This document shows, in pieces, positions 10,997 to 35,648 of a stretch of 43,992 nt of DNA. The notes below the pieces were generated by a model, which saw only the letters and a list, made by a program, of their open reading frames with translations, was not told where the DNA came from and did not search any database. Made by a program: the position numbers and the translations under genes. Position 1 is the stretch's first letter. Each line of letters starts with the position of its first letter. Source of the stretch: Nitrospirota bacterium (GTDB lineage: Bacteria > Nitrospirota > Thermodesulfovibrionia > Thermodesulfovibrionales > JdFR-86). The stretch lies in contig JARRLN010000026.1 in the NCBI GenBank assembly GCA_037386965.1, forward strand, positions 1-43,992, in the 5' to 3' direction.

Positions 10997-11011
10997 GGCG
11001 ATATACGTCCA

Positions 11012-11040
11012 TACATACTCCTTTCCCCCGGGCTTGTCAA
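11012..11040 (-). promoter_or_regulatory. sigma-70 promoter of the molybdenum hydroxylase operon
   Basis: On the minus strand a consensus TTGACA (11035-11040), a 17-nt spacer and TATGTA (11012-11017) lie 15 nt upstream of the start codon at 10996. Only a weak Shine-Dalgarno fits in the leader. Confidence 0.65.
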
Positions 11041-11090
11041 GAAGCCCGTGCTACCATAGGGATAAAAAACCGCGAAAAGGAGACCGGGAG

Positions 11091-11609
11091 ATGGCAGGAC
11101 CGGAAGACCTCAAGGAAATCGTCCAGAAGCGGATGGAACTCATGAAGCGCAAACCCGAGGCGGCTCTCTACCGCCCGCGGGTGACGTCGCGGCACGTGCG
11201 GGGCCTGTACACCGAAAGCAGGGCCCGCCGGCACGTGATGAAAAGCGATTACCCGCCGCCGGCCGGGGGCGAGGACCTGGGCCCCAACCCCATCGAGATG
11301 CTCCTGGGCGCCTTTGCCGCCTGCATCGAGGCGTCCTTCTACGAGTTTGCCGCCCACCGGGGCTACAGGGTGGACGCCGTGAGCGTGGAGGTGGAGGGCA
11401 CGCTGGACCTGAGGGGGCTTTTCATGATAGGGGACGTCCCGGCCTCCTTCAAGGACATCCGTTACACCTTCTCCATAGAGTCTCCGGAGGACGGGGACAG
11501 GATACGGGAGCTTGCCAACGAGGTGCTCTGCCACTGTCCCGTGGTGGCGAGCCTCTCCACCCCCGTGCCCGTTACGGGCGAGGTCAACGTCAAAAAGACG
11601 GGCGGGTAA
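11091..11609 (+). CDS. OsmC/Ohr-family protein
   Basis: 172 aa. It contains GPNPIEMLLGAFAACIEASF (about 63-82), where the Cys is the first of the two redox cysteines of OsmC-like proteins, and LCHCPVVASLSTPVP (about 144-158) with the second. The family reduces organic hydroperoxides or acts as a thiol-active protein of unknown substrate. ATG 11091 has an AAGGAG region and GGGAG just before it; the reading frame is open further upstream but overlaps the divergent promoter region, so the later start is preferred. It is divergent from the Mo hydroxylase operon. Confidence 0.85.
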   Translation: MAGPEDLKEIVQKRMELMKRKPEAALYRPRVTSRHVRGLYTESRARRHVMKSDYPPPAGGEDLGPNPIEMLLGAFAACIEASFYEFAAHRGYRVDAVSVEVEGTLDLRGLFMIGDVPASFKDIRYTFSIESPEDGDRIRELANEVLCHCPVVASLSTPVPVTGEVNVKKTGG

Positions 11610-14142: not shown

Positions 14143-15509
14143 AGGACGACGAACGGAAGATACAGGTCCTTGTCGTGGACGACGAAGAGCCCTTCCGGAG
14201 GCTCCTGAAGAAGGAGCTCACCCGCAAGGGGTTCGCCGTGGAGGTGGCCGGCGACGGGGCCGCGGCCCTTCAGAGCATGAAGGAGCACCCCTTCGACGTC
14301 GTCCTTCTGGACATCGTCATGCCCGGGGTGGACGGCATCTCCGTCATGAAGGAGATGCGGGGGGAGCACCACAAGCCGGCGGTGGTGGTGCTTACCGGCC
14401 GGGCCACCATCGAGACGGCCGTGGAGGCCATGAAAAACGGCGCGTATGATTACCTGACCAAGCCCTACAAGCTCGACGAGCTGGAGATCATCATCAACCG
14501 TGCTTATGAATACGAGCGCCTGAGCACCGAGAACCTCGTCCTGCAGCAGGAGCTGATCAGAAAGGAATCCCGGGGCGCCATTATCGGCCGGAGCCGGGCC
14601 CTCGAGGACGTCCTGGCCCTAGTCGGGAAAATCGCCGCCACCGACTCCACGGTGCTCATCACCGGGGAGAGCGGCACGGGCAAGGAGCTCATCGCCAACA
14701 CCATCTGGCAGATGAGCACCCGGCGGGACCGCCCCTTTACGGCCCTGAACTGCTCCACTTTTTCCGAAAACCTCATGGAGAGCGAGCTCTTCGGCCATGA
14801 AAAAGGGGCCTTCACCTCCGCCTACCAGAGCAAGTACGGCATCGTGGAGGTCGCGGACAAGGGCACCCTGTTCCTGGACGAGATAGCCGAGATGCCCGTG
14901 GGGCTTCAGGCCAAGCTCCTGAGGTTCCTGGACTCCGGGGAGTTCCGCCGGGTGGGAGCCACCCGGCCCCTCTCGGTGGACGTCCGCGTCCTGGCGGCCA
15001 CGAACAAGGACCTTCAGGCCCTCGTGCAGGAGGGCTCCTTCCGGGAGGACCTGTACTACCGTCTCAACGTCATCAACATAGACCTTCCTCCCCTGAGGGA
15101 GCGGAAGGAGGACATCCCGGAGCTGGCCGAGCACTTTGTGGCGAAGTACGCCTCGAAGCTCGCCAAGCCGGTCCGGGGCGTGGAGCCCGCGGCCGTGGGG
15201 AAGCTCGTGGCCTACCACTGGCCGGGCAACGTCCGGGAGCTCGAGAACGAAATGGAGCGTGCCGTCATCCTTACCGAGGGCGAAAGCATCGGCTCCGGGG
15301 ACCTTTCCATCCCCGTGACGCACGAAGAGGCTCCGGCGGGGACTTCAAACGGGGGCGGCCCCTATTTGCCCCTGGAGGAGATGGAAAAGGACTACATCCT
15401 CAAGGTCCTCCGCGAGACCGGGGGCAACCAGTCCCGGGCCAGCCAGGTCCTGGGCATCAGCAGAAAGACCCTCTACCTGAAACTCAAGAGATACGGCATC
15501 TCGGCCTGA
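14139..15509 (+). CDS. NtrC-type sigma-54 response regulator with variant GAFTSA loop
   Basis: 456 aa from a GTG overlapping the kinase stop. The receiver domain has the acidic pair VVDDE, phospho-acceptor Asp58 (LLDIVMPG), the LTG threonine and YDYLTKPY lysine. The AAA+ domain has GESGTGKE and FREDLYYRL, and the C-terminal Fis-type helix-turn-helix is GNQSRASQVLGISRKTLYLKLK. The loop that contacts sigma-54, normally GAFTGA, reads GAFTSA here (14805-14822). It is the likely activator of the sigma-54 promoter at 15616 and of the downstream methyltransferase and coenzyme M genes; this is inference from position. Confidence 0.94.
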   Translation: MKDDERKIQVLVVDDEEPFRRLLKKELTRKGFAVEVAGDGAAALQSMKEHPFDVVLLDIVMPGVDGISVMKEMRGEHHKPAVVVLTGRATIETAVEAMKNGAYDYLTKPYKLDELEIIINRAYEYERLSTENLVLQQELIRKESRGAIIGRSRALEDVLALVGKIAATDSTVLITGESGTGKELIANTIWQMSTRRDRPFTALNCSTFSENLMESELFGHEKGAFTSAYQSKYGIVEVADKGTLFLDEIAEMPVGLQAKLLRFLDSGEFRRVGATRPLSVDVRVLAATNKDLQALVQEGSFREDLYYRLNVINIDLPPLRERKEDIPELAEHFVAKYASKLAKPVRGVEPAAVGKLVAYHWPGNVRELENEMERAVILTEGESIGSGDLSIPVTHEEAPAGTSNGGGPYLPLEEMEKDYILKVLRETGGNQSRASQVLGISRKTLYLKLKRYGISA

Positions 15510-15615: not shown

Positions 15616-15631
15616 TGGCATGAAAATTGTT
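15616..15631 (+). promoter_or_regulatory. sigma-54 (-24/-12) promoter of the methyltransferase cluster
   Basis: TGGCATGAAAATTGTT fits the TGGCACG-N4-TTGC consensus. The GG pair is at 15617-15618, and the -12 element is TTGT instead of TTGC at the exact expected spacing (12 nt from G to G). Transcription would start near 15642, just before the GTG at 15646. It lies immediately downstream of an NtrC-type regulator gene. Confidence 0.65.
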
Positions 15632-15645
15632 GTTCTTCAAGTGCC

Positions 15646-16011
15646 GTGGAAAAGATTCTCCTATGTTCATACGACCCCATTTTCACCAAGGCGCTCATGG
15701 GGGTGGTGTTTCAGGAGGGCTACGGCGTAGAGGTGGTGGACCATGCCGCACTGGCGGTTCAAAAGGCGATGGCCCGCTCCTATGCCGGCGTCATCCTGGA
15801 TTCCGGCTCCATAGGGCTTCCGGCGGAGGAAGCGGCGAAAATCATCAACCTGGCCGTCGGAGACGTGCCGGTCATCGTGGCGGGCAGCACCGGCACCTCC
15901 GACGGCGGCACGTGGAGCATCCGGAGGCCGCCGGACCTTCTGGAGGTGACGCAGGTGGTCAGGGAGCTTCGCACACGCACAGAAGCGGAAAGGAGAGGCA
16001 GAGGCATATGA
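15646..16011 (+). CDS. receiver-like (pseudo-receiver) protein, first gene of the methyltransferase run
   Basis: 121 aa from a GTG at 15646. It has the length and alpha/beta pattern of a CheY-like receiver, with MEKILLCSYDPIFTKAL at the N-terminus and VILDSGSIG placing Asp52 at the phospho-acceptor position. The acidic pair is reduced to one Asp (D10), and the usual Lys-Pro near the end is Arg-Pro (SIRRPPDLLEV), so it may not be phosphorylated normally. Its stop overlaps the ATG of the next gene (ATGA), tying it to the methyltransferases. A regulatory or scaffold role is a guess. The start is within about 5 nt of the predicted sigma-54 start site. Confidence 0.7.
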   Translation: MEKILLCSYDPIFTKALMGVVFQEGYGVEVVDHAALAVQKAMARSYAGVILDSGSIGLPAEEAAKIINLAVGDVPVIVAGSTGTSDGGTWSIRRPPDLLEVTQVVRELRTRTEAERRGRGI

Positions 16012-17036
16012 AACCCAGGGACGTGATAGTGAAAGCCTTCGAAGGGGGCAGACCCAACAGGGTGCCGGCGACTCTCTTCGGGGCGGGGATGTGGAGCATC
16101 AAGGACTACGGCACGAGCTTCGAAGCGCTAGGGCACGACGCGACGAAGATGACCGACATGCTGGTGGCCGAGAGCCAACGCCTTCTTTGCGACATCGTCT
16201 ATGCCGGGAGCGGCTATAACAATTTTCATGCCGCCGCCTTCGGCGGCGGCATCAAGTACCGTGAAATGGGAGCCCCGGACCTGAAGGAGCACCTGGTTAC
16301 AAGCGAGGAGGACCTGGAGAAGCTGGACCTTGCGGCCCTGGATCGCGACGAGGTCATACGCACGGTGAAGGAAGCCCTCCGGGCCGCGAAGAAGAAGCTC
16401 GGCGACGAGTACGTGGTCACCATGACGGCCTGGGGGCCCTTCACCCTGGCGGCCCGGTTCGTGGGGGAGGAGGACATGATGAAGGCCACCTTCAAGCGCC
16501 GGGAGTTCGTCCACAAGGTCTGCGCGTTCATCACCGAGCTCCTCATACGCCTGTACGAGCCCCTGGTCAAGGACGGCACCCTCCAGGTCATAAGCCTCGC
16601 CGACCCCACCGCCAGCGGGGACCTCATCTCCAAGAAGCAGTTCAAGGACTTTGCCGTCCCCTACCTGAGGAAGTTCACCGACTGGGCCAAGTCCCAGAAC
16701 GCGCACACGCTGGTGCACATCTGCGGCAACACCACCGACAGGCTCGAGCTCATGCCGGAGACCGGGGCCAGCTGCATCAGCCTGGACCACAAGACCGACA
16801 TCGCGAAGGCCAAGGAGCTCCTGCACGGGAAGATGTGCTTCGCCGGCAACGTGGACCCCGTGGCCATCATGCTCCAGGGAACGCCGGAACAGGTGCGGGA
16901 GGTCTCCCGCAGGGTCATAGAGACCGCGGGGACGGACGGGGGCTTCGTCCTCATGCCCGGATGCGACATCCCGCCCACGGTCCCCTACGAAAACATCCAG
17001 GCCTTCATCGGGGCGGCACGGGAGTGGAAACTGTAA
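16008..17036 (+). CDS. MtaA/CmuA-type methyltransferase (URO-D family), copy 1
   Basis: 342 aa, full length. The fold is that of uroporphyrinogen decarboxylase, and the zinc motif of MtaA-type enzymes is present: His237-x-Cys239 in LVHICGN and Cys319 in LMPGCDIPP. The family moves methyl groups between a corrinoid protein and a thiol (CoM in MtaA/MtbA), or from a methylated substrate to the corrinoid protein (CmuA, MtvB, MtoB). With the corrinoid protein, MtrH-type protein and CoM genes nearby, it is either the methylcobamide:CoM step or a substrate-specific demethylase. It starts inside the stop of the pseudo-receiver gene and has GGAGAGG upstream. Which direction it works in cannot be read from sequence. 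Confidence 0.88.
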   Translation: MKPRDVIVKAFEGGRPNRVPATLFGAGMWSIKDYGTSFEALGHDATKMTDMLVAESQRLLCDIVYAGSGYNNFHAAAFGGGIKYREMGAPDLKEHLVTSEEDLEKLDLAALDRDEVIRTVKEALRAAKKKLGDEYVVTMTAWGPFTLAARFVGEEDMMKATFKRREFVHKVCAFITELLIRLYEPLVKDGTLQVISLADPTASGDLISKKQFKDFAVPYLRKFTDWAKSQNAHTLVHICGNTTDRLELMPETGASCISLDHKTDIAKAKELLHGKMCFAGNVDPVAIMLQGTPEQVREVSRRVIETAGTDGGFVLMPGCDIPPTVPYENIQAFIGAAREWKL

Positions 17037-17053
17037 AAAGCCAAGGGGAGGTG

Positions 17054-17137
17054 ATGAGAAGGACGGAGGCAGCAAGGCGCAGGCCGTTTGAAAACCTTGA
17101 AGGAGAACGGCTATGGGAACTTTGTGGGAGGAGCTGA
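17054..17137 (+). CDS. possible 27-aa peptide between methyltransferase and CMD genes
   Basis: A strong GGGGAGGTG stands right before ATG 17054, and the frame encodes a very basic 27-residue peptide (MRRTEAARRRPFENLEGERL...) before a stop at 17137. It overlaps the N-terminal part of the next gene in another frame. I do not recognise it. It could be a translated leader, a decayed gene start, or chance. Confidence 0.2.
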   Translation: MRRTEAARRRPFENLEGERLWELCGRS

Positions 17138-17640
17138 AGAGTTTCTTTGTCCGCACGGGGCCCCCGAGGCCCGTGGGACGGGGAGAGAAAGGAGAAACGA
17201 TGGAAACGAAGATGACGGCTGAGCAGGCAAACGCGTACATGAAGGAGAAATGCGGGTTCGTTCCCCGCATGTTCCAGATCATCAACACCGTCACCCCCGA
17301 GCCGGGGAAGACCTTCGCCGACTTCTACGCCAGCATATTCGGCGACGGCGCCCTCTCGAAGAAGGTCAAGGAGCTGATGTTCATGTCCGGCGGGGTGGCG
17401 TACTGTTCGCCCCGGTGCATCATCCACGTCGTCCCGGCCATCAATGCCGGGGCCACCTCGGAGGAGGTCTTCGAGGCGGCCGCCGTGGGGATGATCCTGG
17501 CGGGGTTCGTCCCGGGCGGACCGGGCATCCCCTATGCCTTCGAGTACGCGCTGAAGTGCGTGGATATCGACCAGAAGTTCAGGAAAGGCGAGGAGTGGGA
17601 GTACCTGCCTCAGCCGAAGTTCGACCACGGCATCTACTAA
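17113..17640 (+). CDS. carboxymuconolactone decarboxylase/AhpD-like protein
   Basis: 175 aa from ATG 17113 or 146 aa from ATG 17200; both have good ribosome sites (AAGGAG and AAAGGAG) and the recognisable domain begins after the second. The core KVKELMFMSGGVAYCSPRCIIHVVPAINAGATSEE has the AhpD-like pattern of cysteines followed by His (C-x3-C-x2-H) and the AGAT turn. Family members are small all-helical oligomers acting as decarboxylases or thiol-based peroxidatic/redox partners. Its place between two methyltransferase genes implies a job in methyl transfer or thiol redox chemistry, but no function is established. Confidence 0.75.
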   Translation: MGTLWEELKSFFVRTGPPRPVGRGEKGETMETKMTAEQANAYMKEKCGFVPRMFQIINTVTPEPGKTFADFYASIFGDGALSKKVKELMFMSGGVAYCSPRCIIHVVPAINAGATSEEVFEAAAVGMILAGFVPGGPGIPYAFEYALKCVDIDQKFRKGEEWEYLPQPKFDHGIY

Positions 17641-17705
17641 GGGGAGGCCGTGAGGGGGGCGGCCCCGCCGCCCCCCTCTCATAAAAAACAGGGGAAGGAG
17701 ATTCG

Positions 17706-18671
17706 ATGTTCAGGTTCCAGACGCCGCAGAAGGTTTTCGATTTTGCCGGTTTCAAGATAGGGGGGCAGCCCGGCGAGAACCCGCCGCTTCTCATCGCCTC
17801 CATGTTTCACAACAAGGACAGAATACTCCGCGACCGAAAGGGAGACTTCGACCGGGAGCGCGCCCGCGAGCTTATTCGCAGGCAGGAGGAGCTTTCCCGC
17901 TCCACCGGCATCCCGGCCATGGTGGCCATGGTGGCCAATTCTCCCGAGGAAGCGAAGATATACATCGATTTCTACCTGGAGACCACCGGCATGCCCTTCG
18001 GCATCGATATGTGGATGGCCGAGAAACGGGCAAAGGCCACGGAGTACGTGGCGAAGCTGGGGGTGCAGGAAAAGTTTCTCTACAACAGCATCACCCCGTG
18101 GGACAAGGACATAAAGGGGCAGGTGCAGAGGCTCAAGGACCTGGGCATCCGGCACGTCATCATCCAGGCCTTCGACGACCAGGACCAGAGCCCCGCCGGG
18201 AGGCTGAAGTCGCTGGAGAGCTTGCTGGGGCAGGGGGCCGACGCCTTCGACACCATCCTGGTGGACACCTCGGTGATGAACCTCCCCAGCACGAGCTTCT
18301 CCCTGGTGGCCAACAGGCTCATCAAGCAGAAGCTGGGCCTGCCCTGCGGCAGCGCGTACAGCAACGGCACCCACATGTGGAAGGAGGCCAGGGAAGCCTG
18401 GGGACTGGAGGGCTTCCGGGCGATGGACGCGGTGGCCCAGGGGATGTCCAGCGCCCTGTGGAGCGACTTCGACCTGTACGGGCCCGCCGTCACCGCCCCC
18501 AGGATCTTCCCCGCGGTGGCCACGGGCCAGATACTGCTGAGCACCCTCGCCTATGAGGAGACGGGCCGGATACCCGAGAACCCCGACCTGCCCATTCGGA
18601 GGTACTTCCCGGACTTCATCGAGAAGCTCCTGGCCGGAGGAGCCCGGAAAAAAGCCAAGGCGGCAGGCTGA
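17706..18671 (+). CDS. MtrH-family pterin:corrinoid methyltransferase
   Basis: 321 aa. It resembles subunit H of tetrahydromethanopterin S-methyltransferase, starting FRFQTPQKVFDFAGFKIGGQPGENPPLLIASMF, with conserved TGIPAMVAMVANSPEEA, DTSVMNLPSTSFSL and LPCGSAYSNGTH. The fold is a pterin-binding TIM barrel. Soluble homologues such as MtgA (glycine betaine pathway) and MtoA (methoxyl-aromatic pathway) transfer the methyl group from a corrinoid protein to tetrahydrofolate or tetrahydromethanopterin. It therefore links the corrinoid protein at 19785 to the C1-pterin pool. AAGGAG lies 8 nt before the ATG. The pterin used is not evident; folate is the default in bacteria. Confidence 0.88.
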   Translation: MFRFQTPQKVFDFAGFKIGGQPGENPPLLIASMFHNKDRILRDRKGDFDRERARELIRRQEELSRSTGIPAMVAMVANSPEEAKIYIDFYLETTGMPFGIDMWMAEKRAKATEYVAKLGVQEKFLYNSITPWDKDIKGQVQRLKDLGIRHVIIQAFDDQDQSPAGRLKSLESLLGQGADAFDTILVDTSVMNLPSTSFSLVANRLIKQKLGLPCGSAYSNGTHMWKEAREAWGLEGFRAMDAVAQGMSSALWSDFDLYGPAVTAPRIFPAVATGQILLSTLAYEETGRIPENPDLPIRRYFPDFIEKLLAGGARKKAKAAG

Positions 18672-18704
18672 CCGAGACGATAAAAAGGAGGAGAGACCGC
18701 AATC

Positions 18705-19745
18705 ATGATAGGCGAAGAAACCATGACGTCAAAGGAAAGGGTCCTGAAGCTCTTCAGGCGGGAAGAGACGGACCGCCCCGCCTGCTTCAGCGGGATGGGC
18801 AACGCCACCACCGAAGGGCTCAACCAGCTGGGCTACAGGTTCGCCCAGGTCCATCTGGACGCCGGGCAGATGGCCGAGACGGCGGCCACCACGCACAAGC
18901 TCTTCGGGTTCGACTGCTGCGTGCTGCCCTTCGACCTGTGCGTGGAGGCCGAGGCCCTGGGCTGCGAGATAAACACCTATCCGCACTCTGAGGACCTCCT
19001 GTACCCCACCATCAAGGAGAAGGTCATCCACAGCGAGGAGGAGATGGACCTCTCCATCCCCGCCGACTTGCTCTCCCGGGGCCGGGTGCCCCTCATGAAG
19101 GAGGCCATCGGCCTGGCCAGGAAGGACGTGGGCGGGGAGGCGCCCATCGGCTCCTACGTGCTGGGGCCCTTTACCTTGGCGGGGCAGGTCATGGAGCTCA
19201 ACGACCTGCTGAAGCTCAGCTTCAAGAAGCCGGACAAGGTGGGCGCCCTCATGGAGAAGCTCTCGGAGGCCATCATCCAGGTGGCCCGCGCCTATGAAGA
19301 GGCCGGCGTGGACTACCTTACCGTGCGGGAGATGGGCGCGACGAGCGACGTGTTGAGCCCGCGCGTTTTCAAGAGCCTCATCCTGCCCCACCTGAAGGTG
19401 ATATTCGAGAAAGTAAAGGTCCCCAGCGTCGTGCACATCTGCGGGAAGACCAACGACATCGTGGGCTTCATGATGGAGAGCGGGGCCGACGCCATCAGCG
19501 TGGACCAGAAAAACGACGTGGCCGAGAGCCGGAAGAAGCTGGGCGAGGACGCCCTTATCTTCGGCAACTACGACCCCTACAACGTCCTGGTTGCCGGCAC
19601 GCCGGAGCAGGTGCGCCAGACCGTCAGGACGTGCCTGGACGACGGCGTCAGCGCCGTCTGGCCCGGCTGCGACATCTGGCCCACGGTCCCCGCGGAGAAC
19701 TTCAGGGCCATGATGGACGAAGTGAAGCGGTACAAGAAGTCATAG
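18705..19745 (+). CDS. MtaA/CmuA-type methyltransferase (URO-D family), copy 2
   Basis: 346 aa from ATG 18705 (340 aa from ATG 18723, whose N-terminus MTSKERVLKLF is the common family start). The zinc ligands are His244-x-Cys246 in VVHICGKT and Cys322 in VWPGCDIWP. It is clearly diverged from copy 1 and has its own variable substrate-facing segments, so the two probably have different partners: one may demethylate a substrate, the other methylate CoM. AGGAGG lies upstream. It sits directly before the corrinoid protein gene, its expected partner. Confidence 0.88.
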   Translation: MIGEETMTSKERVLKLFRREETDRPACFSGMGNATTEGLNQLGYRFAQVHLDAGQMAETAATTHKLFGFDCCVLPFDLCVEAEALGCEINTYPHSEDLLYPTIKEKVIHSEEEMDLSIPADLLSRGRVPLMKEAIGLARKDVGGEAPIGSYVLGPFTLAGQVMELNDLLKLSFKKPDKVGALMEKLSEAIIQVARAYEEAGVDYLTVREMGATSDVLSPRVFKSLILPHLKVIFEKVKVPSVVHICGKTNDIVGFMMESGADAISVDQKNDVAESRKKLGEDALIFGNYDPYNVLVAGTPEQVRQTVRTCLDDGVSAVWPGCDIWPTVPAENFRAMMDEVKRYKKS

Positions 19746-19784
19746 GTAAGTCATAAGGCAAGGATAGAAAGGAGAGAGGGAGAA

Positions 19785-20489
19785 ATGGCTTCGGAAGAAA
19801 GGAAACAGGAGATACTGGGGCACCTGAAGGAGGCGGTCATAGAGTACGACGAAGACGCCGCCAAGGAGTGGGCCCAGAAGGCCCTGGACGAGGGCCTGAA
19901 GGCCAACGACGCCATCTTCGACGGCCTGGTGGTCGGCATGCAGGAGGTGGGCAGGCTCTTCGAGGCGCAGGAGTACTTTGTGCCGGAGCTGCTCATGTGC
20001 GCCGACGCCCTGTACGCGGGGCTGGACATCCTGAAGCCCCACGTGGAGCAGATGGACCTGGGGCTGAAGGGCTCCGTGGTCATCGGGACCGTGGAGGGCG
20101 ACGTCCATGACATCGGCAAGAACATCGTCAAGATGATGTTCGACGTGGCCGGCTTCGACGTCTACGACCTCGGGCGGGACGTGCCCCTGGATAAGTTCGT
20201 CGAGGAGCAGCTGCGCACCGACAGCGACCTGGTCTGCCTCTCGGCCATGATGACCACGACCATGCAGGGCATGAAGAAGGTCATCGAGGACCTCAAGGCG
20301 AAGAACCCCAACGTCAAGATCATGATCGGCGGAGCGCCGGTCAGCAAGGACATCGCCGAGAAGTGGGGCGCCGACGGCTTCGCCCCCGACGCGACCAACG
20401 CCCTGAAGGACGCCATCGACATGATAAGCTCCCTGAAGAAGCTCAGGGACGAGGCCGGACAGCGGGAAGAGAAGAAAGGGGCTAAGTGA
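19785..20489 (+). CDS. corrinoid (B12-binding) methyl-carrier protein
   Basis: 234 aa. A helical cap domain (about 1-90) precedes the B12-binding Rossmann domain (about 95-215). The His-on cobalamin motif GDVHDIGKN places the cobalt ligand at His108, and the other conserved loops SAMMTTT and IGGAPV are present, as in MtaC/MtbC/MtoC. It shuttles the methyl group on cobalt between the methyltransferases of this cluster. A strong purine-rich ribosome site precedes the ATG, suggesting high expression. Its stop overlaps the GTG of the next gene. Confidence 0.95.
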   Translation: MASEERKQEILGHLKEAVIEYDEDAAKEWAQKALDEGLKANDAIFDGLVVGMQEVGRLFEAQEYFVPELLMCADALYAGLDILKPHVEQMDLGLKGSVVIGTVEGDVHDIGKNIVKMMFDVAGFDVYDLGRDVPLDKFVEEQLRTDSDLVCLSAMMTTTMQGMKKVIEDLKAKNPNVKIMIGGAPVSKDIAEKWGADGFAPDATNALKDAIDMISSLKKLRDEAGQREEKKGAK

Positions 20490-21021
20490 GCGAAGCACTC
20501 AGAAGGGAGCTTCTCGGGGCCGGCGCGGCCCAGGTGGGGTTTGCCTCCCTCCGGGGGGTGCTGAGCCCGGAGCTTTCGCACCTCAGAAACGCCGTCTGCG
20601 TGGGCGTGGACAGCCGCCTCAGGGAGGAGACCCTGTCGCTCCTTCTGGCGCTCCAGAAACGGGCCGCCCGCTTCCTGAGGAAAGAGAGGCACCGGTTCTT
20701 CCCCATTCCTCCGGACTCCGACCGGGTGCGGGACAGGTTCGCCTCCCGGCTCTACCCTCTCATGACCCACAAGATGGCGGCGACCTGCGCGGGGCCATCA
20801 CCGGAGCGGAGTGGTCCCGGGAGGAGCCTTTCCCGGAGCTTCTGCTTGCGAAGCGCTGCACGGCGCACAAGGAGGGAGCGCGGTCCGTCTCCGGACGGCC
20901 CAACTGCGGCCTCTGCATCACCATATGCCCCTACGGCAGGGACCGCGGAGTCCCGCAAGGGACTGCGAAGCCCGCCCGGGGACTTCGGCCCCTGAGGGCA
21001 AGGAAGATTTCGCGACTCTGA
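20486..21021 (+). pseudogene. broken epoxyqueuosine-reductase-like Fe-S protein (internal deletion and frameshift)
   Basis: The N-terminal half reads well from a GTG overlapping the corrinoid gene stop (MSEALRRELLGAGAAQVGFA ... LYPLMTHKMAATCAG), like the QueG-type Fe-S proteins that often accompany corrinoid methyltransferases. After MTHKMAATCAG the frame turns to nonsense, but another frame entered at 20779 encodes GDLRGAITGAEW ... CTAHKEG ... NCGLCITICPYG, the family's C-terminal end with part of its ferredoxin motif, and stops at 21021. The segment normally between them, with the first cluster motif, is missing. The join lies in a GGCGACCTGCGCGGG stretch that can be read in both frames, which suggests deletion between short repeats. 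It may also be an assembly error. Confidence 0.7.
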
Positions 21022-21035
21022 AGGAGAGATAGGAT

Positions 21036-23009
21036 ATGCCGAGGTTCAAAGTGAATTTTCAGCCCTCCGGCAGGAGGGGGGATGTGGAGGAAGGCTCCAC
21101 TCTCCTTGAAGCCGCCCAGAAGCTCGGGGTGGACCTCGAGGCCATCTGCGGCGGGAAGGGCACCTGCGGGAAGTGCAAGGTGCGCGTGGAGGAGGGCTAC
21201 TTCGAAAAGGACGCCATGGACTCCCGCATGGCCCACCTGAGCCCCTTTGCGGAGGCGGAACGGAAGTTCGTCAAGCCCGAGGACGGCCCCTTCATGCGGC
21301 TGGCCTGCTCCACTGAGGTGCACGGGGACGTCAAGATATTCGTGCCGGAGAAGTCCCGCGCCGGGAAGCAGATCGTGCGAAAGGCGGCAAAGGAGATAAC
21401 CATCCCCATAAGGCCGGCCGTGCGGAAGTACTTCGTGGAGCTCAAAAAGCCCGCCCTGGACGAGCCCATCACGGGGGACCTGGAGAGGCTCAAGGCCTTC
21501 CTCGGCAGGGAATACGGCCTGGACAACCTCTCCATCGACTTCGCCGTGCTTGGCGACCTTCAGGATATCATCAGGCGCGGGGAGTGGAACGTGACGGTCA
21601 CCGTCTGGATGGGGCGGGAGATCATAAAGGTGGAGCCCGGCTTCGTGGAGGCCGCCTACGGGCTGGCCGTCGACGTCGGCACCACCACCGTGGCGGCTTA
21701 TCTCTCCGATCTTCTGACCGGAAAGGTCATAAGCACCGAGAGCATGATGAACCCCCAGGTGCCCTACGGGGAGGACGTGATGAGCCGCATCACCTACGCC
21801 ATGACCTCGGAAAACGGGCTCAGGACCATGCAGCAGGCCCTCATCGAGGGGCTCAACGAGCTCGTCGACAGGCTCACCGCCGACCTCCGGATGAACGGCG
21901 CCAGGGGCGGAAGCGCCATCCTGGACATGACGGTGGTCTTCAACACGGCCATGCACCACATCTTCCTGGGGCTGAACCCCACGTACATCGGGCGCTCTCC
22001 CTTCATACCGGCGGTGCAGAACGACATGGACATCAAGGCCCGGGACGTCGGGCTCGATATAAACCGGGCAAGCTACGTCCACGTCCTGCCCATCGAGGCG
22101 GGCTTCGTGGGGGCGGACAACGTGGGCGTGCTCATCGCCCAGGAGCCTTACAAGATGGACGAGAAGGTCCTCATCATAGACATCGGGACGAACGGCGAGC
22201 TTCTGCTGGGCAACAAGGACGCCATCTGCTCCACCTCCTGCGCCACCGGGCCGGCCTTCGAGGGAGCGCAGATAAGGTTCGGCATGCGCGCCGCCCCGGG
22301 GGCCATCGAGGCGGTGCGCATCGACCCGGAGACGAAGGAGCCCCTGTACAAGGTGATCGGGAAGGCCGACTGGCACACCCACATCAAGAAGGTGGACGCC
22401 AAGGGCATCTGCGGCTCGGGCATCATAGACGTGGTGGCCGAGATGTTCAAGGCGGGCATCATCGACAAGTCCGGGAAGTTCGTAAAGGACCTGGACACGC
22501 CCCGGGTGCGGGCAGGGGCCGATGGGAAGATGCAGTACGTGCTGGCCTGGGCCGACGAGACCAGCATCGGGCAGGACATCACCGTGACCCAGGCCGACGT
22601 GCGCGCGCTTCAGCTTGCCAAGGGCGCCCTGTACGCCGGGGCCAAGCTCATGATGAAGAAGATGGGCATCGAGAAGGTGGAGAAGGTCATCCTGGCGGGG
22701 GCCTTCGGAAGCTATATCGACAAGGAGTCGGCCATGACCCTGGGGATGTTCCCCGACTGCGACCTCGACAACGTCTATGCGGTGGGCAACGCCGCCGGCG
22801 ACGGCGCCCTCATGGCCCTGTTGAGCACGGAGAAGCGCCTGGAGGCCAGGGAGAGGGCGCGGTGGCTTGAGTTCGTGGAGATAGCCGTGGAGCCCGAGTT
22901 CGAGAAGGAGTTCATGAAGGCCATGCACATCCCGCACATGAAGGACACGTTCCCCCACGTCAAGGAGCTCCTGGCAAAGAAGGGCTCTCCGGTCCATGTC
23001 AAGGGATGA
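21036..23009 (+). CDS. RACo-type corrinoid protein reactivator (2Fe-2S ferredoxin and ASKHA ATPase)
   Basis: 657 aa. The N-terminal 2Fe-2S domain has C38, C44, C47 and C91 (C-x5-C-x2-C). A linker region is followed by an ASKHA-type ATPase with DVGTTTVAAYLSDLLTGKV, DIGTNGELLLGNKD and GICGSGIIDVVAEM, and a C-terminal LAGAFGSYIDKESAM. RACo, RamA-like and MtoD proteins use ATP to drive reduction of accidentally oxidised Co(II) corrinoid back to the active Co(I) form. The expected client is the corrinoid protein at 19785. AAGGAG precedes the ATG, and the stop overlaps the next start (ATGA). Confidence 0.95.
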   Translation: MPRFKVNFQPSGRRGDVEEGSTLLEAAQKLGVDLEAICGGKGTCGKCKVRVEEGYFEKDAMDSRMAHLSPFAEAERKFVKPEDGPFMRLACSTEVHGDVKIFVPEKSRAGKQIVRKAAKEITIPIRPAVRKYFVELKKPALDEPITGDLERLKAFLGREYGLDNLSIDFAVLGDLQDIIRRGEWNVTVTVWMGREIIKVEPGFVEAAYGLAVDVGTTTVAAYLSDLLTGKVISTESMMNPQVPYGEDVMSRITYAMTSENGLRTMQQALIEGLNELVDRLTADLRMNGARGGSAILDMTVVFNTAMHHIFLGLNPTYIGRSPFIPAVQNDMDIKARDVGLDINRASYVHVLPIEAGFVGADNVGVLIAQEPYKMDEKVLIIDIGTNGELLLGNKDAICSTSCATGPAFEGAQIRFGMRAAPGAIEAVRIDPETKEPLYKVIGKADWHTHIKKVDAKGICGSGIIDVVAEMFKAGIIDKSGKFVKDLDTPRVRAGADGKMQYVLAWADETSIGQDITVTQADVRALQLAKGALYAGAKLMMKKMGIEKVEKVILAGAFGSYIDKESAMTLGMFPDCDLDNVYAVGNAAGDGALMALLSTEKRLEARERARWLEFVEIAVEPEFEKEFMKAMHIPHMKDTFPHVKELLAKKGSPVHVKG

Positions 23010-23320
23010 CGAAGGTTCGGGTCATATCGGGCGCATGCGGCTTCGTCACCGGCATCGTGGCCCGCAAGGAAGGGGCGAAGGAGGTCGGGGTCGCCGTCAC
23101 CTCGGAGTGCGAGATGGTGGAGAAGATGGCGCCCGAGGTGGCCGTGCTCCCGGCCATGGCCGTCTTCGTCCGCCACCCGGACAACCCGGTCTACCGGGCC
23201 GCCGGCAAGCACCTGAAGCACGTGGCCTGCCCGGTGCCCTGCGGCATCCTGAAGGCCCTGGAGGTGGAGGCCGGGCTCAACGTGCCCAAAGACGCGAGCA
23301 TCGCCTTCGAAAAGGAGTAG
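23006..23320 (+). CDS. small conserved unknown of corrinoid methyltransferase clusters (DUF6951-like)
   Basis: 104 aa, soluble. It starts TKVRVISGACGFVTGIVARKEG and has a strikingly conserved-looking pattern of single cysteines: Cys at ACGF, SECEMV and ACPVPCGILKAL. I believe it belongs to the DUF6951 group found next to RACo genes, but this rests on memory of the family. Three or four spaced cysteines could bind a metal or Fe-S cluster. It starts inside the RACo stop codon (ATGA), so tight coupling suggests a shared role in corrinoid reactivation. Confidence 0.6.
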   Translation: MTKVRVISGACGFVTGIVARKEGAKEVGVAVTSECEMVEKMAPEVAVLPAMAVFVRHPDNPVYRAAGKHLKHVACPVPCGILKALEVEAGLNVPKDASIAFEKE

Positions 23321-23326
23321 CAGGAC

Positions 23327-23998
23327 ATGGGGACGCTCTTGAGCCTGGCGGCCTACGCGGCCTGGGCCTTCTTCGTGGCGCGGCTCTGCCGGCACGGCGT
23401 CCTCTGGGTGAGGCGCCGGGGAGCGGCGGAAACGGGCGAGACCACGGTTGCCGGCGTGGTGATGGCCTTCGTCGACGTGGTTTTTCTGAGGAGGCTTTTT
23501 CTGGTGAACAAGGTCCTCTGGATAGGGGAGTGGGTCTTTCACGTATCGTTCGTCCTGGTGCTGCTGAGGCACCTGAGGTTCTTCTTCGACCCGGTGCCGG
23601 GGTGGGTCGCGGCGGTGCAGACGCCGGGGGTGTATGCGGGGTACGCCCTGCCTGTTTCGCTGGCCTATATCCTTCTGGTGAGGCTCACTCTGGAAAGGCG
23701 AAAGTACGTGTCCTCGTACAATCTCTTCCTTACCGGGACGCTCTTTCTCATCGGGCTTACCGGTGTTCTTCAGCGCACCGTGCTCTGGACCGACGTGGTG
23801 GCGACGAAGGAGTTTGCGCGGGGAATCCTGGCGCTGAGCCCCGCCGGTGCTCCCCAAAACCCCGTATTCCTCGCGCATTTCGTTCTGGTCCTCGTTTTGC
23901 TGGTTACCCTGCCCACGCACATATTCACGGCCCCCTTCGTGACCTACGAGGCCTGGCGGCAGGAGGAAGGGGTCAAGAGGCTTCTCCATGATGACTGA
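23327..23998 (+). CDS. b-type cytochrome membrane subunit (HdrE/NarI-like)
   Basis: 223 aa with about five membrane helices. Two pairs of histidines stand in the right places to bind two b hemes: His72 and His82 in EWVFHVSFVLVLLRHLRF, and His184 and His198 in AHFVLVLVLLVTLPTHIF. This is the pattern of NarI, DsrM and HdrE, which pass electrons between quinols (menaquinone or methanophenazine) and a cytoplasmic Fe-S protein. The next gene, overlapping by 11 nt, encodes an HdrD-like protein, so the pair forms a membrane disulfide reductase resembling HdrDE of Methanosarcina. It starts 7 nt after the previous stop. Confidence 0.85.
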   Translation: MGTLLSLAAYAAWAFFVARLCRHGVLWVRRRGAAETGETTVAGVVMAFVDVVFLRRLFLVNKVLWIGEWVFHVSFVLVLLRHLRFFFDPVPGWVAAVQTPGVYAGYALPVSLAYILLVRLTLERRKYVSSYNLFLTGTLFLIGLTGVLQRTVLWTDVVATKEFARGILALSPAGAPQNPVFLAHFVLVLVLLVTLPTHIFTAPFVTYEAWRQEEGVKRLLHDD

Positions 23999-25190
23999 AG
24001 AAAGGTTCACGACGTGCCTCTCGGGCGCGGAGCTTCGCGAGCTGGACGCCTGCACGCAGTGCGGCGAGTGCCTGAAGTTCTGCCCCGTCCAGGAGGTCAC
24101 GGGCGACCCCACGGTCTCCCCGCCCGAGAAGATACGCATGTTCAGGGAGTTCATCCGGGCCACCGAGTCCCTGAAGGCACGGCTTTTCGGCCCGCGGGAG
24201 GTTGACCGCGAGCTCCTCGAGCACTTCGTCAAGGCCGTCTACGAGTGCACGACCTGCGGGGCCTGCGGGCAGGCCTGCACCGTGGGCATACACACGCAGC
24301 GCCTCTGGCCCATGCTGAGGCGGGAGATGGTCAGGCGCGGCCTCGGCCCCCTGGGTCCGCAGAGCGCCTTGCCCGGTGTGGTCCAACGGACGGGAAACAT
24401 CTACGAGAAACCCGCGTCGGAGCGCTATGGCTGGTTCCCCGATGGCGTAGCCGTGGCTGAGGAGGCGGAAATTGCCTATTACGCCGGCTGCACGGGCGCT
24501 TACGAGGCACAGCCCATGGTGCGGGGGGATGCGCTCGTTCTGGGGGCCGTCGGCGAGCCCTTCACGATGCTCCCGCCCGAGGAGGAGGTCTGCTGCGGCT
24601 TTCCGCTCTTCATCACCGGACAGCACGACATGCTGGAGGGCCTCGTGAAACGGCTCGTCCAGGCGTACAGGGCCAGGGGGGTTCGCACGCTCCTGTGCTC
24701 CTGTCCCTGCTGCGTGAACATGATGGCGCGGGACTGGCCCCTCTTTTACGGAGAGCGGCTGCCCTTTAAGGTCCGGCACATAAGCCAGTTCGCGGCTGAA
24801 GCGATGCGGCGGGGGAGGCTCCGGCTTGCCCGGCGGCTTCCCGATGAGAGGCTCATCTATCACGACCCCTGCTATCTGAGCCGGGGGGTGGGCGTTACCG
24901 AGGAGCCGCGTCAGGTCCTCCGGGGCATCCCGGGAGCCACACTCCTTGAGTTTGAGCGCAACCGCGAGGACTCCCGGTGCTGCGGGGCCGGCGGGGCGGC
25001 CAGGAAGATCTATCACGAAAACGCCGTAGCCATCGCGCGGCTTTCCATAGACGAAGCGGCGGCCAAAGGTGCGGACAGGCTTGTCCTGAGCTGCCCGGCC
25101 TGCTACAGCAAGCTGAACGAGGCCCTGGAGGGGCACGAGCGGCAGGTGCGGATAACCGACCTCATGGAGCTCGTGGGGAGCCTGCTGTGA
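23988..25190 (+). CDS. HdrD-like heterodisulfide reductase catalytic subunit
   Basis: 400 aa, the size of archaeal HdrD. Two ferredoxin motifs come first (C22, C25, C28, C32 and C87, C90, C93, C97). Two complete CCG domains follow, with spacing C168-x33-CC-x35-C-x2-C, and DPC-x35-CC-x36-C-x2-C near the C-terminus; both fit the CCG consensus that binds the noncubane 4Fe-4S clusters which split disulfides in HdrB/HdrD. It should reduce a mixed disulfide, for example one involving coenzyme M, using quinol electrons from the cytochrome b. DsrK, TmcB and lactate/glycolate oxidase subunits are related, but the CoM genes downstream favour the Hdr role. The start is ATG 23988 or 23991. Confidence 0.85.
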   Translation: MMTEERFTTCLSGAELRELDACTQCGECLKFCPVQEVTGDPTVSPPEKIRMFREFIRATESLKARLFGPREVDRELLEHFVKAVYECTTCGACGQACTVGIHTQRLWPMLRREMVRRGLGPLGPQSALPGVVQRTGNIYEKPASERYGWFPDGVAVAEEAEIAYYAGCTGAYEAQPMVRGDALVLGAVGEPFTMLPPEEEVCCGFPLFITGQHDMLEGLVKRLVQAYRARGVRTLLCSCPCCVNMMARDWPLFYGERLPFKVRHISQFAAEAMRRGRLRLARRLPDERLIYHDPCYLSRGVGVTEEPRQVLRGIPGATLLEFERNREDSRCCGAGGAARKIYHENAVAIARLSIDEAAAKGADRLVLSCPACYSKLNEALEGHERQVRITDLMELVGSLL

Positions 25191-26458
25191 GCCACTTCTC
25201 CATCGTATGCAGAAACTGCGGGAAGGTCCTCCCGCAGGTCTACTGTGCCTTCTGCGAGCACTGTACGGGCTCCCTCCTGGTCACCCGCTACAAGGAAGCC
25301 CGCTTCCGTGAAGGCGACAGGGCTCGGGGCGTCTGGCGGTTCAACTGGCTGCCGGTGCACTCCCCGCGGGGGATACCCCAGTCCGGGCCGGTGGTCTACC
25401 GCTCGGAGGGCCTTGCCCGGCGGCTGGGCCTCCGGGAGCTCTGGGTCGCCTTTAACGGGTACTGGCCCGAGCGCGGGGCCCTCATCGAAACCTGCACCTT
25501 CAAGGAGTTCGAGGCGGCCGTGGTGCTGGCCAACGCCCGGGAGAACGGCGTGGCGGGCCTGACGGTGGCCAGCGCGGGCAACACCGCCCGCGCCTTTGCG
25601 CATCTGTCGCAGAAGACGGGCTACCCCGTGACCATCGTGGTGCCCAGCATGTGCCTGCAGGATATGTGGTATCTGGAGACCTCCTCTCTGGTGCCCACCA
25701 TGGTCATCGAGGACGGCGACTACTCCGACGCCATCGACGTGGCCCGCCGGTTCTCCCTGATATCGGGCATGCCGTTCGAGGGTGGGGTGAAGAACGTGGC
25801 CAAGCGTGACGGGCTGGGCATCGTGATGCTGGAGGCGGTCTCGGCCATGGGCAGGATGCCCGGCCACTACGTGCAGGCCGTGGGAAGCGGCGCGGGGGCC
25901 ATAGCAGCCTGGGAGATGTCCGAGCGCTTCCTTCGGGATGGCCGCTTCGACGGCAGGCTGCCCCGGCTTCACCTGGCCCAGAACCTTCCCTTTGCCCCCA
26001 TGAGCAAGGCATGGCAAAGGGGAAACCGGGAAATGGACCCCGCGGACCTGGAGGCCTCGCTCATCGCCTGCATATCCACCCGGGTGCTCTCCTCCCGCTA
26101 CCCGGCCTACGGCGTCAGGGGAGGGGTTTACGACGCGTTGACGGCCACGGGCGGGAACATGTACGCTGTGACAAACGAAGAGATGGCCGAGGCCCGGGAC
26201 CTCTTCGAGGAGTGCGAGGGGGTGGACATCGTGCCGGCGGCGGCGGTGGCCGTGGCCGCCCTGGGGAAGGCCGTCACGCAGGGGGCCATGGGCGACGGGG
26301 AGCCCGTGCTCCTGAACATAACCGGAGGCGGGGAGAAGAGGCTCAAGGAGCAGAAGAAAACCTATGCCGTGGGAGGCGAACGCATCTCCAAGGACATCTC
26401 CGATGCGGGCATCGAGGAACTGCTGTGCGGAGCCCTGAAGAGGAACTCCTCGAGATAA
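25187..26458 (+). CDS. cysteate synthase (threonine synthase paralogue)
   Basis: 423 aa from a GTG overlapping the HdrD stop. A Cys-rich zinc-ribbon-like start (C8, C11, C20, C23, C26) precedes a fold-type II PLP enzyme. The likely PLP lysine is Lys106 in ETCTFKEFEA, and SAGNTARAFA (129-138) is the phosphate/substrate loop. Cysteate synthase of Methanosarcina makes L-cysteate from O-phosphoserine and sulfite as the first step to coenzyme M and evolved from threonine synthase. The assignment over threonine synthase rests on the AGNTARAFA-type loop and, more strongly, on the adjoining sulfopyruvate decarboxylase. The aminotransferase needed in between is not in the window. Confidence 0.8.
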   Translation: MSHFSIVCRNCGKVLPQVYCAFCEHCTGSLLVTRYKEARFREGDRARGVWRFNWLPVHSPRGIPQSGPVVYRSEGLARRLGLRELWVAFNGYWPERGALIETCTFKEFEAAVVLANARENGVAGLTVASAGNTARAFAHLSQKTGYPVTIVVPSMCLQDMWYLETSSLVPTMVIEDGDYSDAIDVARRFSLISGMPFEGGVKNVAKRDGLGIVMLEAVSAMGRMPGHYVQAVGSGAGAIAAWEMSERFLRDGRFDGRLPRLHLAQNLPFAPMSKAWQRGNREMDPADLEASLIACISTRVLSSRYPAYGVRGGVYDALTATGGNMYAVTNEEMAEARDLFEECEGVDIVPAAAVAVAALGKAVTQGAMGDGEPVLLNITGGGEKRLKEQKKTYAVGGERISKDISDAGIEELLCGALKRNSSR

Positions 26459-27564
26459 TCAAGGCCTCGGGGGTGGACCTCCTGCTGACCCTGCCCTGCG
26501 ACCGCGTGAAGGCGTTTATCGGCCTGGCCGACCGCTACCTGTCCCGCCTGCCCCTTACGCGCGAGGAAGAAGGCGTGGGCATCGCCGCGGGGGCCGCTCT
26601 GGCGGGCCGGAGGCCCGCCATGGTGGTGCAGAGCTCCGGGGTGGGAAACATGGTCAACGCCCTCCTGTCCCTCACGCGGTTCTACGAGCTGCCGCTGGCC
26701 CTCTTCATAAGCCATCGGGGGGTGTACAGGGAGGGCATCGCCGCTCAGGTGCCCATGGGCCGGGCCCTTCCGGGCCTTCTCGAGGCCATGCATATCCCCT
26801 TCTCTACCCTCAAGTCCCCCGAAGAGTTTTCCCGGGTCGGGGAGGCGCTCGAGAGCCTCTATCGCGAGGGCCGCATCCATGCCTTTCTCCTGGTCCCTTC
26901 GATCTGGGAGGGCTCGGAGGCCGAGGCCCCCGTGCGTCAGGACCGCCCGTACTGCGAGCCCGCGGAGGTCGGCGCCCGGCCCGCCTGTCCGCCTGCGGGG
27001 ATGAGGCGTTATGAGATTATCCAGGCCCTACGGCCCGCCCTGGAGGGCAACGTCGTGGTCTCGAACCTGGGGGTGCCCTCCAAGGAGCTTTACCACGTGC
27101 TGCCCCAGCCGTCGAACTTCTACATGCTGGGCAGCATGGGCATGGCCACCCCCATCGGCCTGGGGCTGGCTCTTTCCACCCCGGGGCGCGTCTTCGTGAT
27201 AGACGGGGACGGCAGCCTGCTCATGAACCCCGGCACCCTGGCCACGGCCGCCCTGGCCGCGCCGGAGAACCTCACCGTGCTCTGCGTGGACAATGCCTCC
27301 TACGGCTCCACGGGGGAGCAGCCCACCCTGACCGGGACATGCGTGGACCTGGAGGCGGTGGCCCGGGGCATGGGCATAAAGCGGACGGCTCGCGTCTGGG
27401 AGCGGGAGGGCCTCCTTGAGGCTGCGCGGAGGACCGACGGGCCGCTTTTCATCCATGCGCTGGCCCGCCCCGGTAACGCCAGGGTGCCGGACATCCCGCT
27501 TTCGGCCGGGGAGATAAAGGGCCAGCTCATGGGGTTTCTGTCCCGCACACCGAGGGCTTCCTGA
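26425..27564 (+). CDS. comDE: sulfopyruvate decarboxylase, fused alpha and beta domains (ComDE)
   Basis: 379 aa. The N-terminal half is the ComD-like thiamine-PP pyrimidine domain with the activating Glu in LTREEEGVGIAAGAALAG (about residue 48). The C-terminal half is the ComE-like PP domain with GDGSLLMN (261-268) and, 25 residues on, CVDNASYG for Mg2+. The enzyme decarboxylates sulfopyruvate to sulfoacetaldehyde, a coenzyme M precursor. The start is GTG 26425, preceded by GAGG at 7 nt and lying inside the cysteate synthase gene, so the two are coupled. Phosphonopyruvate decarboxylase is the closest alternative, but no PEP mutase gene is present. In Methanocaldococcus the two domains are separate proteins. 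Confidence 0.82.
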   Translation: MRSPEEELLEIIKASGVDLLLTLPCDRVKAFIGLADRYLSRLPLTREEEGVGIAAGAALAGRRPAMVVQSSGVGNMVNALLSLTRFYELPLALFISHRGVYREGIAAQVPMGRALPGLLEAMHIPFSTLKSPEEFSRVGEALESLYREGRIHAFLLVPSIWEGSEAEAPVRQDRPYCEPAEVGARPACPPAGMRRYEIIQALRPALEGNVVVSNLGVPSKELYHVLPQPSNFYMLGSMGMATPIGLGLALSTPGRVFVIDGDGSLLMNPGTLATAALAAPENLTVLCVDNASYGSTGEQPTLTGTCVDLEAVARGMGIKRTARVWEREGLLEAARRTDGPLFIHALARPGNARVPDIPLSAGEIKGQLMGFLSRTPRAS

Positions 27565-27576
27565 AAGAAGAAACCC

Positions 27577-28197
27577 TTACAGCCGCCCGGTTTGCCGGTA
27601 GTCCCTGACGTAGAGCTTGAGAGCGCGTGCGATGAGCCAGTCCAGGGAGACACCGTGCTCTCCAGCTATGGAGATGAGGCTGTCCAGGATTTCCTTCTCC
27701 AGTCCCTCCGGAGACGGGGCTTCCGGGGCCCCTTCTTCTTCTTTTCCTTTCCCTTCCGCGGGCTCTTCCCCGGAGCGCTTCTTCTGCTCCCGGGCCAGCA
27801 GGCGGGTAAGCTCTTGCACGTCGCCCGAGGAGGCCGCCCTCAGCAGCTCTTCGGAAGCGGGGCCCGCGGGCCTCTCTTCGCCGTCCGGCTCGCCGCGGCC
27901 CTCCTTCTTCTCCTTTTTTCCCTTCTTGTGGCCGTGGCGGTCGTGGTGCCCGGAGCCTCCGTGCGCACCGCCTGTGCCCATCACCATTTCGGCCAGCTTC
28001 CGAGCCATGGGGTTATCCGGAAGCTCCTGGTCAAGGAACTCCTCCAGCCGCCCCTGGGCCATGGCGTGGTGCATGTGCTCGGCCAGGAGGTCCGGCCGGC
28101 GGTCCTCTTCGCCCTCGAAATGGCGCTTCCTCCCGAAGGGCCCCTTGCGGGGCGGCTCCGGAAGCTTCCTTTCGCCGGGTTTGTCTTTCTTACTCAT
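27577..28197 (-). CDS. unknown charged, His-rich protein
   Basis: 206 aa. I do not recognise a family. It is dominated by Lys/Glu/Gly, with a HMHHAM segment (about 42-47) and a second basic His stretch GSGHHDRHGHKKGKK (about 81-95). A low-complexity Glu/Pro linker follows (about 140-165), then an ordered C-terminal helix pair ISIAGEHGVSLDWLIARAL. The His clusters could bind metal. It converges on the comDE gene with a 12-nt gap, and a palindrome that may be its operator abuts its start codon. The codon pattern looks like real coding sequence, but function is unknown. Confidence 0.6.
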   Translation of the reverse strand: MSKKDKPGERKLPEPPRKGPFGRKRHFEGEEDRRPDLLAEHMHHAMAQGRLEEFLDQELPDNPMARKLAEMVMGTGGAHGGSGHHDRHGHKKGKKEKKEGRGEPDGEERPAGPASEELLRAASSGDVQELTRLLAREQKKRSGEEPAEGKGKEEEGAPEAPSPEGLEKEILDSLISIAGEHGVSLDWLIARALKLYVRDYRQTGRL

Positions 28198-35610: not shown

Positions 35611-35648
35611 AACGGCCTCCCTGAGCGACGTACTCTTTTCCTGTACAA

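Follow-up and report, generated by a model that had tools for sequence, protein, structure and literature searches.

A conserved Nitrospirota operon of predicted coenzyme M synthesis and methyl-transfer genes in genomes without methyl-coenzyme M reductase

The DNA analysed here (the window) is a complete contig of 43,992 bases (C26) from a Nitrospirota genome of 2.54 Mb in 137 contigs, rated 96.7% complete with 0.1% contamination. Its plus strand carries a run of genes in which methyl-transfer proteins and a disulfide reductase-like pair precede two enzymes of the archaeal cysteate route to coenzyme M, a cofactor known chiefly from methanogenic archaea. The run opens with MtaA1 (16008-17036; PF01208, 212 bits), an MtaA/CmuA-like methyltransferase of the URO-D superfamily, followed by a carboxymuconolactone decarboxylase (CMD)/AhpD-like protein (17200-17640; PF02627, 29.8 bits, cut-off 23), an MtrH-like methyl-corrinoid:pterin methyltransferase (17706-18671; PF02007; NF002142, 332 bits, cut-off 287), the methylcobamide:coenzyme M methyltransferase-like MtaA2 (18705-19745) and an MtaC-like corrinoid protein (19785-20489; PF02310, PF02607; TIGR02370, 208 against a cut-off of 215). 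The CMD/AhpD-like gene keeps its position between MtaA1 and MtrH in relatives. Next come a damaged 4Fe-4S protein gene (20486-20995), an ATP-dependent reductive activator of corrinoid proteins (RACo; 21036-23009; PF14574, 331 bits), a DUF6951 protein (23006-23320; PF22263, 106.7 bits), an HdrE/DsrM-like cytochrome b (23327-23998; NF038037, 66.9 bits, cut-off 300), an HdrD-like iron-sulfur protein (23988-25190; PF02754 twice), cysteate synthase (25187-26458) and the fused sulfopyruvate decarboxylase ComDE (26425-27564). The damaged gene was recognised by tblastn with the intact copy of a relative (L046), in which Fer4_16 is found; compared with intact copies in relatives it has an internal deletion of about 45 codons and a change of frame, representing either a genuine lesion or an assembly error. 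Here and below, G numbers denote genomes (G000 is that of the window, the others those of relatives) and L numbers denote stretches from relatives.

Family models place every gene named by an earlier note on this DNA on the plus strand, with two corrections of layout. The note began the run at 15646 with an MtaA/CmuA-type gene; that gene is real, but 15646 is the start of a separate 121-residue open reading frame (ORF; 15646-16011, taken from the ORF list and without a Pfam match), and an ORF of similar size also lies upstream of MtaA1 in L165 and L166. The HdrE-like cytochrome is likewise present, but not in the longest ORF (22996-23991), which is in the wrong frame: relatives have the DUF6951 gene and then cytochrome b at this place. 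The CMD/AhpD-like and damaged 4Fe-4S genes had been passed over, and a further, probably pathway-linked gene on the minus strand (28319-29278), discussed below, lies beyond the region that the note described.

Members of the cysteate synthase family convert O-phosphoserine and sulfite to cysteate. The window's protein scores 465.5 with TIGR03844 (cut-off 324.9), while the best threonine synthase model gives 92.5 bits. A maximum-likelihood tree (quick mode) has a branch, with 100% support in the Shimodaira-Hasegawa-like approximate likelihood-ratio test (SH-aLRT), that separates the cysteate synthases, 17 of them bacterial and 11 archaeal, from threonine-synthase-like proteins, among them one of the window genome; the bacterial cysteate synthases form a single group, also with 100% support. 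Because several outgroup branches are very long, only the main split of this tree is used. ComDE exceeds the cut-off for the alpha domain (TIGR03845, 176.8 against 147.95) and, as a fused protein, lies just below that for the beta subunit (TIGR03846, 209.7 against 221.5), whereas it scores 194 with the phosphonopyruvate decarboxylase model TIGR03297 (cut-off 312.5). The phylogenetic check on the first gene had been set beforehand, and its outcome, together with the model scores, rules out a threonine synthase at 25187-26458; a phosphonopyruvate decarboxylase at 26425-27564 is rejected on model scores, with no tree involved. The archaeal cysteate-route genes that the earlier note saw in a bacterium are genuine. 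In the tree, the window's protein has as its closest cysteate synthase (68%) one from a contig whose label reads Thermoleophilia (Actinomycetota; L107), for which transfer or misbinning is possible.

Dozens of Nitrospirota contigs, both from relatives within the order and from the loci of a named genome collection, repeat this arrangement of genes, far beyond chance, so that the run counts as an operon conserved in Thermodesulfovibrionales and related members of the phylum. Nearly all named relatives that bear it are Nitrospirota, of the Thermodesulfovibrionia and Thermodesulfovibrionales wherever these ranks are given, which is the basis on which the analysis placed the window genome; three records are titled 'chromosome' (CP070737, CP070788 and CP070669). 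Archaeal contamination is ruled out by this distribution and by the low contamination of the window genome, and the bacterial host that had been claimed is borne out. Among Nitrospirota loci whose contig extends far enough to test each gene, ComDE adjoins or follows cysteate synthase in 61 of 62, and upstream of cysteate synthase lie MtaA2 (40/42), the corrinoid gene (42/44), RACo (46/48) and HdrD (50/56). We also compared 101 genomes of the order, 33 of which have cysteate synthase (32 above the cut-off and a split copy in G093). An MtaA2 orthologue occurs in 33/33 genomes with cysteate synthase and in 2/68 without it, and the same counts hold for an orthologue of the minus-strand gene at 28319-29278 (Fisher p 1e-24 in both cases, a value that ignores kinship among genomes). 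Genomes with and without cysteate synthase are mixed within families f1, f2, f4, f7, f8 and f13, and within genus g13. Coenzyme M and methyl-transfer genes, first noticed together in a single run, thus stay together across the phylum. We found no description of this operon in the open-licence literature, a search that left subscription journals and preprints aside. In G059 cysteate synthase has shrunk to its N- and C-terminal ends (L165:13835-14103) in an otherwise complete operon.

What this gene set leaves unfilled is the final step of the route to coenzyme M. Genetic work on Methanosarcina acetivorans identified MMP16 (COG1900), encoded after ComDE, as the principal coenzyme M synthase (PMC12068725). 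ComF/COG1900 (PF01837) is absent from the window genome and from 100 of the 101 order genomes, all carriers of cysteate synthase included. The single genome with ComF (G050; MMP16 model, 401.7 bits, cut-off 364) also has ComA; it is one of two genomes with the MtaA2 operon but no intact cysteate synthase, and it is without the gene orthologous to 28319-29278. Its bacterial MMP16/ComF and a shorter second copy (L066:7770-9095 and 10658-11578) have as neighbours a CCG iron-sulfur protein, a molybdopterin enzyme and a tripartite tricarboxylate transporter. ComA (PF02679), which marks the phosphosulfolactate or Xcb route, is absent from the window genome and present in 9/101 order genomes; the idea that one of ComA and cysteate synthase strictly replaces the other was given up, because ComA also occurs in genomes with cysteate synthase. 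The alpha subunit of methyl-coenzyme M reductase (Mcr; mcrA, PF02249) was found in none of the 101 order genomes, that of the window included, with positive controls, so that the lack of Mcr noted for the window holds for the whole genome and the order set.

A candidate for the missing step is the NMT1-like, predicted cytosolic protein encoded on the minus strand at 28319-29278. Its N-terminus, MARPLRIGHLST, has no evident signal peptide when judged by eye, and its nearest family is SsuA (TIGR01728, 103.7 bits, under the cut-off of 163.5). The AlphaFold model (mean pLDDT 92.8) is closest among solved folds to the sulfonate-binding proteins TauA and SsuA and also to the enzyme Thi5, and no transporter genes were recognised adjoining the gene. 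Thirteen residues are invariant in the Nitrospirota and Hydrothermarchaeota orthologues (C76, H81, E83, H123, D124, W147, D149, H218, E219, C259, H302, H307 and Y308), and at most of these positions the secreted SsuA-type proteins encoded in the same operons have other residues. In a sample of 396 genomes of the phylum, overlapping in part with the order set, 59 have both cysteate synthase and the NMT1-like gene, 3 cysteate synthase only, 4 the NMT1-like gene only and 330 neither; the NMT1-like gene thus occurs in 59/62 genomes with cysteate synthase and in 4/334 without. Among genomes with cysteate synthase that are new relative to the order set, 28/31 have it, and the two genes are frequently on separate contigs. 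In the window, a hydrophilic protein without a family match (27577-28197, minus strand) is encoded between ComDE and the NMT1-like gene; copies of it, 33-44% identical, are found near cysteate synthase in many loci, often at this same place.

In archaea the NMT1-like gene and ComF are complementary. None of four with cysteate synthase and ComF (Methanosarcinales, Syntrophoarchaeum, Methanoregulaceae and Methanophagales) has the NMT1-like gene, whereas the seven with cysteate synthase and no ComF, which are Hydrothermarchaeota and two records under the label Euryarchaeota, all have it, and in six of them it comes immediately after ComDE; in L140 its ORF overlaps the end of ComDE. A link to plasmid-borne coenzyme M genes was also sought, and yielded merely weak SsuA-like matches with less than 29% identity. 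On these data the protein looks like an enzyme built on a sulfonate-binding scaffold and probably belongs to the coenzyme M pathway, and its association with cysteate synthase and complementarity with ComF suggest that it may be, or may serve, a new coenzyme M synthase that replaces ComF. The alternative that survives best, though we regard it as unlikely, accepts that coenzyme M is made and used and assigns the NMT1-like protein the role of a cytosolic sulfonate sensor or carrier, with the last step non-enzymatic or performed by an unrecognised enzyme. The fold, shared with sulfonate-binding proteins, would suit such a role; a sulfide-dependent or uncatalysed backup route has been discussed for M. 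acetivorans (PMC12068725), and sulfide would be at hand for sulfate reducers. It accords less well with the invariant Cys, His and Glu residues, which differ in transport-type binding proteins, or with a complementarity to ComF that is exact in the archaea tested.

The methyl-transfer proteins bear on what coenzyme M would be used for. MtaA2 exceeds the cut-offs of two models (NF004889, 268.6 against 244; TIGR01463, 250.8 against 235.4), one of which is named methylcobalamin:coenzyme M methyltransferase, and its best structural match is the enzyme of that name (4ay7/4ay8; E 1.8e-47 for 4ay7). It keeps the HxC...C motif as H244-x-C246 and C322; at 252.6 it is under the cut-off of 400 for the methanogen MtaA equivalog NF040654, which places it in the MtaA-like subfamily and outside that equivalog. 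MtaA1 retains H237-x-C239 and C319 and is under the TIGR01463 cut-off (186 bits against 235). The MtrH-like protein is under the cut-off for the MtrH of the membrane complex (TIGR01114, 162.8 against 271.4), which marks it as a soluble MtrH-like enzyme, and no other Mtr subunit lies within the run. A comparable MtrH-like protein of Methermicoccus, MtoA, works with a pterin instead of coenzyme M (PMC8630106). A FolD gene lies within the operon in 11 of the Nitrospirota loci compared, after the DUF6951 gene in some relatives (identified by Pfam in L062), which points to tetrahydrofolate. A second MtaA, 51-54% identical, occurs in seven genomes, all with the MtaA2 operon, and where the contig reaches, its own operon encodes a URO-D protein, a corrinoid protein and RACo, with no MtrH detected by blastp; this arrangement fits methyl-coenzyme M as a shared hub. 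In L184-L190 this second operon, itself conserved, comprises DUF1638, a histidine kinase and regulator, MtaA, CobW, a CbbQ-type AAA protein, an 899-residue protein without a Pfam match, DUF2284, and the URO-D, corrinoid and RACo genes. G059 has an SsuA-type sulfonate transporter inside the operon (binding protein 196 bits, cut-off 163.5), a comparable set of ORFs is present there in G050, and three genomes with cysteate synthase also have the transporter, which suggests uptake of a sulfonate, possibly of coenzyme M.

These methyl-transfer genes could instead carry out ordinary bacterial demethylation of the Cmu, Mec or Mto type, with methyl groups passing from substrate to corrinoid to tetrahydrofolate, while the sulfonate genes turn sulfoacetaldehyde into some other product, for example taurine or isethionate, and merely share the operon. 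The combination of URO-D, corrinoid, MtrH-like and RACo proteins does resemble mec cassettes (PMC9768040) and Mto systems (PMC8630106), and FolD in some operons suits direct transfer to folate. We nevertheless consider this explanation improbable, given that cysteate synthase and MtaA2 co-occur almost absolutely over families in which both are patchy, that MtaA2 is above the cut-off for methylcobalamin:coenzyme M methyltransferase, and that G050 has ComF instead, the main coenzyme M synthase of M. acetivorans (PMC12068725).

The last component is the HdrDE-like pair. The HdrD-like protein carries a pair of 4Fe-4S motifs and a pair of complete CCG motifs, judged by conservation in 63 copies, and the cytochrome b has conserved H72, H82, H184 and H198 in 57 copies; by family models HdrD lies among TfrB, LdhH and DsrK-type proteins, under every equivalog cut-off. 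Of the link to a membrane disulfide reductase that had been proposed, the genes and motifs are in place, but the pair is a frequent rather than a constant partner. In two archaeal stretches the cluster of cysteate synthase, ComDE and the NMT1-like gene adjoins a cytochrome c and an HdrDE-like pair (L140) or a heme-copper oxidase (L139), with no methyl-transfer genes in either. Coenzyme M might be made chiefly to carry sulfur or act as a redox thiol that HdrDE recycles, much like glutathione, with the methyl genes linked for some other reason. This would accord with the two CCG motifs, these archaeal neighbourhoods and the protection of a methanogen from oxidants by coenzyme M overproduction (PMC12713407), but it is quite improbable, since in Nitrospirota MtaA2 is a more constant partner (40/42) than HdrD (50/56) and accompanies cysteate synthase in every order genome that has it (33/33).

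Taking the gene identities, their conservation and co-occurrence, and the absence of Mcr and ComF as observed, we consider it moderately probable that this operon serves Nitrospirota without methyl-coenzyme M reductase as a one-carbon module dependent on coenzyme M. Cysteate synthase would make cysteate, which a general aminotransferase would convert to sulfopyruvate, and ComDE would yield sulfoacetaldehyde, with the NMT1-like protein performing or enabling the final sulfur insertion instead of ComF. RACo would keep the corrinoid proteins reduced; MtaA2 would let these swap methyl groups with coenzyme M, and MtrH would do the same for tetrahydrofolate. If one corrinoid protein serves both enzymes, methyl groups would pass between coenzyme M and folate. 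Since the corrinoid proteins would exchange with both carriers, methyl-coenzyme M could act as a soluble relay that connects the systems for methyl compounds with folate metabolism. HdrDE would probably link the membrane quinone pool to the thiol/disulfide balance of coenzyme M or of a similar thiol. The more specific proposition, that the NMT1-like protein is an unrecognised coenzyme M synthase of Nitrospirota and Hydrothermarchaeota and that the methyl metabolism of these bacteria is centred on coenzyme M and proceeds without Mcr, we put forward tentatively. The three alternatives overlap, and as the sensor or carrier alternative differs from the one-carbon module solely in the role of the NMT1-like protein, our confidences do not sum to one.

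Several observations weigh against the one-carbon module. The case for coenzyme M in these organisms is drawn entirely from sequence, and gene sets resembling the methyl part (the Mec, Mto and Cmu systems) work without coenzyme M. We identified no substrate-specific methyltransferase, and HdrD was not found beside cysteate synthase in 6 of 56 testable loci. The final enzyme is proposed by association and, with the fold of a binding protein, may do no more than bind or sense a sulfonate; moreover, no NMT1-like gene was detected in three of the genomes with cysteate synthase (G185, 74% complete, and G259 and G359, both above 90%), and four genomes of the phylum sample show the reverse. In Hydrothermarchaeota the synthesis genes lie near respiratory and not methyl-transfer genes, so coenzyme M may serve otherwise there. 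Overall, the earlier interpretation of the run, as soluble methyl-transfer and coenzyme M chemistry linked to a membrane disulfide reductase, is partly supported.

Other genes of the window flank the operon. Upstream on the plus strand, a GAF/PAS sensor histidine kinase (11668-14142) and its partner, an NtrC-type sigma-54 response regulator (14139-15509), both recognised by Pfam, are the probable regulators of the operon, and a homologous pair adjoins it in several relatives (for example L052, L055, L168-L170 and L173). A sigma-54 promoter-like site at 15616-15631 was rejected as being at chance level (15 such sites in the window against 15.6 expected). Downstream lie a fructose-1,6-bisphosphatase of the FBPase_3 family (34522-35658, minus strand; 610 bits), another sensor kinase/NtrC pair (36102-38881) and then, to 43758, a chemotaxis cluster with a weak B12-binding-domain match, an MCP signalling protein and a CheA-type kinase.

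If the proposal is correct, coenzyme M would not be confined to methane- and alkane-metabolising archaea and alkene-oxidising aerobes, and it would have a role in the one-carbon metabolism of a bacterial lineage often met in metagenomes from groundwater and the subsurface. As markers of methanogenesis in metagenomes and metabolite surveys, both coenzyme M and cysteate synthase would then lose weight, and there would be a testable candidate for the step that completes coenzyme M synthesis in organisms without ComF.

The operon was compared with the known systems nearest to it. The order of cysteate synthase and fused ComDE is that of the cysteate route of M. acetivorans (MA3297 cysteate synthase, MA3298 ComDE and MA3299 MMP16/ComF), whereas here the host is bacterial, the order lacks Mcr, the genes are linked to methyl transfer and an NMT1-like protein accompanies them instead of ComF. 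Synthesis of the Xanthobacter type (ComA/Xcb) is likewise a coenzyme M route in bacteria; however, Xanthobacter uses the phosphosulfolactate route, for epoxides, and the window genome has no ComA. A URO-D methyltransferase, a corrinoid protein, an MtrH-like enzyme and, in most, an activator are shared with the Mto, Mec and Cmu systems, which pass the methyl group to a pterin and, unlike the operon, have no link to coenzyme M synthesis or HdrDE. With methanogen MtaABC and the Mtr complex the operon has in common an MtaA-type methylcobamide:coenzyme M methyltransferase and an MtrH homologue, but its set is restricted to soluble proteins: the run has none of the other Mtr subunits, and Mcr is absent. 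Finally, the cytochrome b and the HdrD-like protein with two CCG motifs resemble the heterodisulfide reductase HdrDE, from which the latter differs in being under every curated cut-off, among the TfrB, LdhH and DsrK-type proteins.

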